NCBI GenBank assembly: GCA_001443495.1
Contig: LDXR01000001.1
Span: 1-64,000 of the forward strand
DNA: 64,000 nucleotides
Direction: 5' to 3'
Source: a candidate division NC10 bacterium CSP1-5
Lineage (GTDB): Bacteria; Methylomirabilota; Methylomirabilia; Methylomirabilales; CSP1-5
Part shown: positions 22,392-23,691 of the stretch, piece after piece
Position numbering within the stretch: the first letter of the stretch is position 1
Layout of the letters: every line of letters begins with the position of its first letter
Notes under the pieces: model-generated
Database searches by the model: none
Told to the model about the DNA's origin: nothing
What the model saw: only the letters and a program-made list of their open reading frames with translations
Position numbers and translations under genes: made by a program

Positions 22392-22410
22392 CTGGGGGGA
22401 ATCCCCCCAG
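22392..22410 (-). terminator. All-GC hairpin after the lysine-rich micro-ORFs
   Basis: CTGGGGGG and CCCCCCAG pair perfectly over 8 bp around a three-base loop, 13 bases after the stop of the second micro-ORF. The trailing sequence is only weakly T-rich, so it may be a factor-assisted terminator or a boundary element before the gcdH promoter. Confidence 0.5.
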
Positions 22411-22423
22411 CGAGGCACCATCC

Positions 22424-22468
22424 CTATTTCTTTTTCTTGGAGCCTCCCTTTTTCTTTTTCTTCGCCAT
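22424..22468 (-). CDS. Lysine-rich microprotein, 14 residues
   Basis: The frame from the ATG at 22466-22468 encodes MAKKKKKGGSKKKK and ends in TAG. Ten of 14 residues are lysine. It is preceded by AAGGGGGTGA six bases before the ATG, a near-perfect complement to the 16S rRNA 3' end. Upstream bases from AAGGAAAGGGGGTGA to the ATG are almost identical to those before the sister ORF at 22540-22581. Length is below any annotation threshold. Possible roles are nucleic-acid or ribosome binding, membrane interaction, or a leader peptide that senses lysine charging; none is shown. Confidence 0.5.
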   Translation of the reverse strand: MAKKKKKGGSKKKK

Positions 22469-22539
22469 CCAGTCTCACCCCCTTTCCTTGCAGGGTATCC
22501 CCGCATCTGCGCAAATCACCACTTCGATGTTCTGTCTTC

Positions 22540-22581
22540 TTATCTCTTCTTCTTGCCAGCTGCCTTCTTCTTCTTTGCCAT
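22540..22581 (-). CDS. Lysine-rich microprotein, 13 residues
   Basis: The frame from the ATG at 22579-22581 encodes MAKKKKAAGKKKR and ends in TAA. It has the same MAKKKK start and the same leader (GGAAAGGGGGTGAAACTGA before the ATG) as the downstream ORF, while the intervening DNA is unlike, as expected for a duplicated and maintained coding unit. It is the first ORF after the TATAAT at 22640-22645. Codons AAG predominate. Function unknown. Confidence 0.5.
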   Translation of the reverse strand: MAKKKKAAGKKKR

Positions 22582-22639
22582 TCAGTTTCACCCCCTTTCC
22601 TCGCATCCCCCGCGACTCTGTCCGGGGGACGGGTTGTAC

Positions 22640-22645
22640 ATTATA
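22640..22645 (-). promoter_or_regulatory. TATAAT -10 box for the micro-ORF unit
   Basis: A perfect TATAAT on the minus strand overlaps the TAA stop codon of the HEPN gene. The hexamer about 17 bases upstream is a poor -35. It lies about 60 bases before the first micro-ORF. Confidence 0.4.
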
Positions 22646-23090
22646 AGAGGCGCGCCTGAGGGTCTTTCGCATAGACGCGCTTGGCTACGACCCCCACCCA
22701 TTGTTCGGCGATGTTCAGCGTCGCCTCGAGCTCATACAAGGAAATCGGGCGATCCGCCCACTCCAAGAAATGCTGCCCCTTCTTCCGGACCTGCTCGAGG
22801 TCGTCGAGCGTGGAGCCCTCGCCCTCACCGACAAGGGAGCCGGCGATCTGGAGGAGCGTTCGCGTCTGATCCCGTCCCCTGGGACGGAAGCCTTCCGCCA
22901 GCATGAGGGCGCGAGCTGCTCGGAGAACGGCGTGTACGGCAACGACATAAGCCCATTCTGCATCGGTCCCCACTACGGCCTGTGCGGTTTTGAGGTCCTT
23001 CTGCGCCCTGGCCATGAGACGATTCGCACCGGGCAGGTCCGGATCAACCGCCTCCACCAAGCCTTTGGCCTTGAGTTGCTCAAAGATCAT
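22641..23090 (-). CDS. HEPN-domain protein
   Basis: The 149-residue all-helical protein has the HEPN pattern: AQKDLKTAQAVVG in the first helix, AYVVAVHAVLRAARALMLAEGFRPRG in the central hairpin, and an R-X4-H motif (RKKGQH) in the region where catalytic HEPN RNases carry it, although the second usual histidine position is replaced by arginine. It overlaps the upstream nucleotidyltransferase-like gene by 11 bp. HEPN/MNT pairs are typically toxin-antitoxin modules in which the nucleotidyltransferase silences a HEPN RNase, often by AMP addition. Confidence 0.75.
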   Translation of the reverse strand: MIFEQLKAKGLVEAVDPDLPGANRLMARAQKDLKTAQAVVGTDAEWAYVVAVHAVLRAARALMLAEGFRPRGRDQTRTLLQIAGSLVGEGEGSTLDDLEQVRKKGQHFLEWADRPISLYELEATLNIAEQWVGVVAKRVYAKDPQARLL

Positions 23091-23640
23091 GGATTGACCC
23101 GATCAGAGGAATCGTCCTCCCCTGCAGAACCTCCCGCAGGAAAGGGTCCCCCTCCGCCTTTCGTCGCTGGAGCTCCCGCTCGTCAAAGACCAGATAATTG
23201 ATGCTCCGGCCGATGCGCAGCTCCAGGGCCGCCACCACCCGATTCAATTGCGCCATGTGAGGCCGCCCCATCACCAACACGTCAATGGCCTCACCCTCCG
23301 GGACCTCGGGTTTGCCGAAGAGTAGGGCCACCCGGATTCCGGCCACACCCCGAAGCGCTTCGCCGATCGCCTGGGGAACCCCTCGTGTCTTATCGATGAT
23401 GGCCTTGAGTTCCGGATAGAGAGGGAAGGTCTTGTTGACGATGTAATAGCGGAGATTGCCAACCTTGCTGCTCGTGAGGAGGCCTGCCTTCTCCAAATTG
23501 TCCAGCTCCCGCTTGATCCCCGAGATATCGCGCTTGAGCTCTCTCGCAATTTCCCTCACGTAGTATCGTTGGTCTTGACGGCTCAAAAACAGTTCGAGCA
23601 ATTGCACCCGGGTTTCAGACGAAAAGAGCTTATCCAGCAT
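23080..23640 (-). CDS. Winged-helix plus degenerate nucleotidyltransferase protein, HEPN partner
   Basis: The 186-residue protein has an N-terminal winged helix (RVQLLELFLSRQDQRYYVREIARELKRD, then the wing) and a C-terminal MNT-like fold. The usual GS-X10-DxD nucleotidyltransferase signature is reduced to FGKPEVPEGEAIDVLVMG, keeping one acidic residue, so catalysis is doubtful. Such fusions are known as partners of HEPN proteins and could autoregulate the operon through the winged helix. In-frame ATGs up to 23673 lie upstream of the inferred -10 box, so the ATG at 23640 is the better start. Confidence 0.7.
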   Translation of the reverse strand: MLDKLFSSETRVQLLELFLSRQDQRYYVREIARELKRDISGIKRELDNLEKAGLLTSSKVGNLRYYIVNKTFPLYPELKAIIDKTRGVPQAIGEALRGVAGIRVALLFGKPEVPEGEAIDVLVMGRPHMAQLNRVVAALELRIGRSINYLVFDERELQRRKAEGDPFLREVLQGRTIPLIGSIHDL

Positions 23641-23661
23641 CCGAGTTTGCCCCTGATGAAG

Positions 23662-23691
23662 TGAATACATCATAAGTTACTTTTTTGTCAA
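23662..23691 (-). promoter_or_regulatory. Sigma-70 promoter of the HEPN/MNT operon
   Basis: A perfect TTGACA (23686-23691, minus strand) is followed after 18 bases by TATTCA (23662-23667) in a clearly AT-rich stretch with an upstream A/T tract. This fixes the likely start of transcription near 23655 and excludes the upstream ATG codons. Confidence 0.6.

Follow-up and report, generated by a model that had tools for sequence, protein, structure and literature searches.

Two tandem micro-ORFs in the CSP1-5 contig encode, as judged from comparative sequence analysis, real and conserved lysine-rich microproteins. They close an operon in which a wHTH-MNT gene is followed by a HEPN gene, the two micro-ORFs and a GC hairpin (Table 1). 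On balance, we favor a reading in which the microproteins act as polycations and are encoded by the 3' genes of an operon that is autoregulated and stems from a HEPN-MNT (PDC-M05) toxin-antitoxin-like module with lost enzyme motifs. Operon order, co-inheritance in one clade, motif loss, selection on the reading frame and exceptional Shine-Dalgarno pairing are the parts of this reading that sequence comparison supports directly. If it is correct, the micro-ORFs would rank among the shortest conserved bacterial protein-coding genes, and they have been missed by annotation.

Table 1. Operon features in the window, which is the whole 64,000-nt stretch of contig LDXR01000001.1 that was analyzed
Feature	Positions	Strand	Remarks
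TTGACA, -35 element of the operon	23686..23691	minus	perfect in every locus of the order inspected
Candidate operator, inverted repeat TGATG-N9-CATCA spanning the expected -10	23654..23672	minus	most genus relatives
wHTH plus degenerate minimal nucleotidyltransferase (PDC-M05A), 186 aa	23080..23640	minus	
HEPN-domain protein (PDC-M05B), 149 aa, catalytic His replaced	22641..23090	minus	
Shine-Dalgarno leader of micro-ORF 1, GGAAAGGGGGTGA	22588..22600	minus	12-nt pairing to 16S 3' end
Micro-ORF 1, MAKKKKAAGKKKR plus stop, 13 aa	22540..22581	minus	orthologs found
Shine-Dalgarno leader of micro-ORF 2, GGAAAGGGGGTGA	22475..22487	minus	12-nt pairing to 16S 3' end
Micro-ORF 2, MAKKKKKGGSKKKK plus stop, 14 aa	22424..22468	minus	orthologs found
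GC hairpin CTGGGGGGATTCCCCCCAG, 3' of the micro-ORFs, probable end of operon transcription	22392..22410	minus	

Operon organization and signals

The first-pass annotation of this DNA described a miniature transcription unit with its own TATAAT box. The elements that it listed are all present (two ORFs, two 13-nt leaders, 6-nt spacing, all-GC hairpin), but the micro-ORFs form the 3' end of the wHTH-MNT/HEPN operon, which has its own TTGACA promoter at 23691. The supposed box (22645-22640) actually consists of the final HEPN codons, TTA (Leu) and the TAA stop, plus a T. It is not conserved, reading TATAG in two of the closest relatives, and a search for a sigma-70-like promoter at this site near 22645 found none. 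Stand-alone micro-ORF units do exist in Rokubacteria.

An inverted repeat also covers the expected -10 element in most loci of the order inspected, and in other families of the order a repeat of the type CGTTGT-N9/10-ACAACG occupies the same promoter position. The repeat overlaps the promoter, and its combination with TTGACA suggests autorepression. The 197-aa ORF call for the wHTH gene (start 23673, minus strand) begins inside its own promoter and operator; the conserved start is at 23640. The first gene product matches PDC-M05A (PADLOC PDLC04368; E = 1.6e-39, residues 9-197) and the second matches PDC-M05B (PADLOC PDLC04374; E = 5.9e-7, or 3.7e-13 for a homolog). PDC-M05 is an unvalidated candidate defense pair that resembles HEPN-MNT toxin-antitoxin modules (PMC12988326).

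The leaders can pair over 12 nt, one G.U included, because the 16S 3' end of the source genome is the standard TGGATCACCTCCTTTC; an altered anti-Shine-Dalgarno sequence is thus ruled out. In comparison, the 48 large ORFs of the window reach at most 10 nt of such pairing, and most have 4-7 nt. The pattern of leader plus ATGGC has exact matches in the whole 2.77-Mb genome only at micro-ORFs 1 and 2. The GC hairpin occurs once in the window (0.01 expected by chance), and its fold (-24.2 kcal/mol, z = -2.6) is a single stable hairpin 3' of the ORFs. Since a counterpart lies downstream of the micro-ORFs in 28 of 30 loci of the order and some Nitrospirota loci add a T tail to the corresponding hairpin, it is probably the operon terminator.

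Conservation of the reading frames in Methylomirabilota

Five of the six relatives in the genus have micro-ORFs at the corresponding position. Four of these have the tandem pair, and in the fifth the contig ends after the first ORF. One genus relative uses GTG start codons. Indels within the ORFs come in multiples of three nucleotides, whereas the stretch between them has an 8-nt indel. The earlier proposal that translation of both ORFs is under selection is borne out, since frame, start, stop and leader are kept and changes fall mainly at third positions. Loss of frame or leader in relatives, which the same annotation named as evidence to the contrary, was checked for; the tandem pair recurs with its frame preserved.

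A search through the class detected the HEPN gene in 31 of 95 genomes, every one from the source's own order, and tandem K/A-rich micro-ORFs lie 3' of it in all 30 loci of the order obtained. This set holds 60 micro-ORFs of 12-32 aa; one locus (L026) is truncated at a contig end, and one ORF (in L040) was called from an in-frame start further upstream. After the start residue, their composition is 51% K and 29% A, with acidic and aromatic residues nearly absent. Most are preceded by a near-perfect GAAAGG(A/G)GGTGA, and differences in the pooled ORFs are 0.11, 0.10 and 0.29 at codon positions 1, 2 and 3. In the Methylomirabilis-like family, which presumably includes Ca. Methylomirabilis oxyfera, the first peptide terminates in GRGC or GKGC (for example, MAAAKKPAAKKAAPKKAAPKAGKKTGRGC). 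This end (L039, L043-L047, L049-L052) holds the only cysteine and is a possible disulfide or modification site.

A search of relatives for micro-ORFs behind the leader, as the first-pass annotation had suggested, extends the family through the phylum. When searched with a strict pattern (GGTGA, start, A-K-K, at most 30 nt, K-K-K-stop), 54 of 95 genomes match, representing 25 of 33 genera; the reversed pattern, used as a control, has no match among the 95. When the strict matches are pooled with those of a variant pattern and with the HEPN loci, approximately 82 of the 95 genomes have at least one micro-ORF, with one to three different microprotein copies per genome.

In Rokubacteria, a different order within the phylum, versions of 12-13 codons occur in two settings. 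In the first, tandem copies lie between a gene for an AbiEi_2-domain protein (Pfam 1e-5) and recG (L060, L061, L063-L065, L075, L077-L079, L082). AbiEi is an antitoxin and type IV toxin-antitoxin regulator, but these loci differ from AbiEi systems in that no AbiEii is adjacent and the micro-ORFs occupy its place. The AbiEi-like gene is a second regulator of toxin-antitoxin type that accompanies microproteins of this kind. In the second setting, a lone copy sits between nrdR and a radical-SAM gene (these two genes and recG were named by eye), with conserved TTGACA and TAGCAT promoter elements, a strong Shine-Dalgarno sequence and a terminator-like hairpin. Ten Rokubacterial 12-codon genes, mostly stand-alone with one (L070) from the AbiEi setting, have mean pairwise differences of 0.03, 0.00 and 0.25 at codon positions 1, 2 and 3, compared with 0.72 in the region from -40 to -21, and they start with GTG, TTG or ATG. 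This codon-position pattern is the signature of a protein-coding gene. Positions 1 and 2 are nearly invariant while position 3 varies; the microproteins are therefore translated and selected.

One clade of the HEPN-MNT module

The best PDC-M05A loci were sampled from Nitrospirota, the phylum of a deltaproteobacterial MAG and an archaeal phylum (30 each). Loci were picked by wHTH-MNT similarity, or by HEPN similarity in the source's own order, and not by their micro-ORFs. Micro-ORFs accompany 26 of the 30 Nitrospirota homologs. They are found at 0 of 30 loci in the deltaproteobacterial phylum and 0 of 30 in the archaeal phylum, so linkage to PDC-M05 in general is rejected (0/60). As for the four Nitrospirota loci without micro-ORFs, a contig end cuts one, and three lie outside the micro-ORF clade. 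HEPN is likewise rejected as a necessary partner, because eight Nitrospirota loci without it keep micro-ORFs 32-69 nt 3' of the wHTH-MNT gene.

A maximum-likelihood tree of 119 wHTH-MNT proteins groups all 55 micro-ORF bearers in one clade (support 100/96), which also takes in the contig-cut Nitrospirota locus. The micro-ORF label requires the minimum number of changes on this tree, a value matched by 0 of 500 shuffles. The MNT motif GS..DxD, which is needed for adenylylation in MntA (PMC7641770), is intact at its alignment column in 0 of 55 proteins within the clade versus 62 of 63 outside; a looser regular-expression search without alignment finds it in 1/55 and 61/63, respectively. The HEPN histidine is present in 7 of 48 proteins within the clade versus 40 of 43 outside, and the source protein has RPRGRDQT, which does not match the RX4-6H RNase motif, at the corresponding position. 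By these alignments, the micro-ORF clade has lost its enzyme motifs, and motif loss is no proof of activity loss.

The operon resembles PDC-M05 (PMC12988326) in the sequence and order of both genes. It differs in its lost catalytic motifs and added polylysine micro-ORFs, in the absence of HEPN from some Nitrospirota, and in near-universal vertical inheritance within the source order, unlike a scattered defense gene. Adjacent MNT and HEPN genes are also found in the HepT/MntA (type VII) toxin-antitoxin system (PMC7641770), whereas the source clade lacks GSX10DXD, mostly lacks the RX4-6H histidine, and has an extra wHTH domain and the micro-ORFs. Defense predictors call the micro-ORF clade PDC-M05, although it is probably different in function. 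The combination of dead enzyme motifs and tandem polylysine genes in one clade of a candidate defense or toxin-antitoxin module marks a clean evolutionary event, and exaptation of such modules is therefore directly testable.

Functional readings and occurrence in other phyla

In the reading that we favor, the wHTH-MNT protein, with HEPN where present, would bind the inverted repeat over the promoter and set expression, a toxin-antitoxin module having been exapted into a regulator. The microproteins would be genetically encoded polycations, comparable to histone-H1/HU tails standing on their own, with electrostatic binding to DNA, RNA or ribosomes. Histone H1-like and HU C-terminal tails consist of K, A and P repeats, and the Methylomirabilis-like peptides have comparable repeats of the AAPKKAAPKK type, except that here the tail is the entire protein, with its own start and stop and a length of 12-32 aa. 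Nucleic-acid or ribosome binding appears the most likely role. A bulk charge-based role fits better than a single fixed binding site, since charge persists as the sequence drifts, and neither length nor copy number is constant. Quick degradation of peptides of 12-16 aa may count against this explanation.

In an unlikely alternative, the microproteins would themselves serve as the module's effector, as cationic growth inhibitors that replace the lost HEPN toxin and are held in check by an antitoxin-type wHTH regulator. Cationic peptides can damage cells, the toxin motif is lost, and cassette loci always include a toxin-antitoxin-type wHTH gene (wHTH-MNT in two phyla and, in Rokubacteria, an AbiEi-like regulator that lacks an adjacent AbiEii). 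However, stand-alone copies with a strong promoter and no nearby regulator occur in Rokubacteria and elsewhere; the peptides lack a hydrophobic face for membrane insertion; and inheritance is vertical across families rather than scattered.

We give still less credence to a new tiny ribosomal or ribosome-associated protein that fills one rRNA pocket, like bS22, bL37 or eL41. These proteins are also very small, strongly basic and missed by annotation, and Borrelia bS22, which is 61% K/R and was unannotated before cryo-EM (PMC10618245), is similar in size and charge. A strong promoter and Shine-Dalgarno sequence would suit such a protein. In contrast to the fixed helical sequences of bS22, bL37 and eL41, the microproteins hold only their composition. 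They are too variable for one pocket, ranging from MAKKKAAKKKK to PAPKKAAPKKSGRGC over 12-32 aa and differing between the copies in a genome, and searches found nothing meaningful in the PDB for a 31-aa relative and no NCBIfam match for two relatives.

It is very improbable that the sequences are a purine-rich RNA or DNA element that merely resembles an ORF. The AAG repeats are of low complexity and a strong Shine-Dalgarno sequence could serve as a ribosome-binding decoy, but third-position changes include pyrimidines, ATG, GTG and TTG starts and TAA and TAG stops are exchanged, and indels occur in threes inside the ORFs and not between them. No Rfam family reaches the gathering level near the micro-ORFs at 13 loci; a match to Clostridiales-2 (22.7 bits) is far under its threshold of 58.6 and was rejected as a known RNA.

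The first-pass annotation also raised a lysine-sensing leader for gcdH. The general form of this idea, attenuators or leader peptides acting through lysine sensing or ribosome slowing to control the downstream gene, is hardly tenable: lysine runs, tandem layout and nearby hairpins would fit it, but it fails because the downstream acyl-CoA dehydrogenase gene is conserved within the genus only, with other genes in its place in other families and no close same-strand gene in some relatives, while the hairpin separates the micro-ORFs from the downstream gene and follows them even where no same-strand gene comes next, the composition of the whole peptide is conserved, and the conserved partners precede the micro-ORFs instead of following them.

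The recurrence of such genes in this phylum and a second one, linked to one branch of a toxin-antitoxin-like pair that is now motif-less, points to a previously overlooked group of tiny proteins that would coat nucleic acids. As a tentative extension, which we consider possible without favoring it, ultra-short (12-32 aa) polylysine proteins would form an unrecognized, widespread class of genetically encoded bacterial polycations. They would be near-universal in Methylomirabilota; in Nitrospirota, their carrier would be a dead HEPN-MNT module exapted from toxin-antitoxin to nucleoid or ribosome charge regulator. Literature searches, incomplete in coverage, returned no description of such microproteins. 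The carrier phyla include nitrite-dependent methane oxidizers and nitrifiers.

Other phyla were covered by a wide scan of 85,000 genomes. Among the matches listed are in-frame, Shine-Dalgarno-led polylysine micro-ORFs in Nitrospirota, Planctomycetota, Omnitrophota, Eisenbacteria, Levybacteria and others; many matches in AT-rich Firmicutes and Methanobrevibacter were discarded as out of frame. Outside Methylomirabilota, few genomes match the strict pattern (1/148 and 3/117), partly because Nitrospirota variants escape it. Instances in different phyla may be homologous or convergent, either being compatible with such low-complexity sequence. Some are syntenic within their own clade, in a serS/secA interval or before smc (identities read by eye from ORF starts). 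In Levybacteria, a MAKKKKKKKK-type micro-ORF lies between apparent serS and secA genes (L121, L133, L146, L089); the L089 copy is labeled Nanoarchaeota, and its contig is probably misbinned. In Brocadiales (Planctomycetota; L099, L126), a MAKKKAAKKKK-type micro-ORF immediately precedes an smc-like gene (chromosome structure). An Omnitrophota locus (L104, 5394-5451) has the almost pure-lysine MAKKKKKKKKKKKK, and a 55-aa K/T/A version with KKKTTA repeats in Nitrospirota (L255) suggests that the peptides can grow through repeat expansion.
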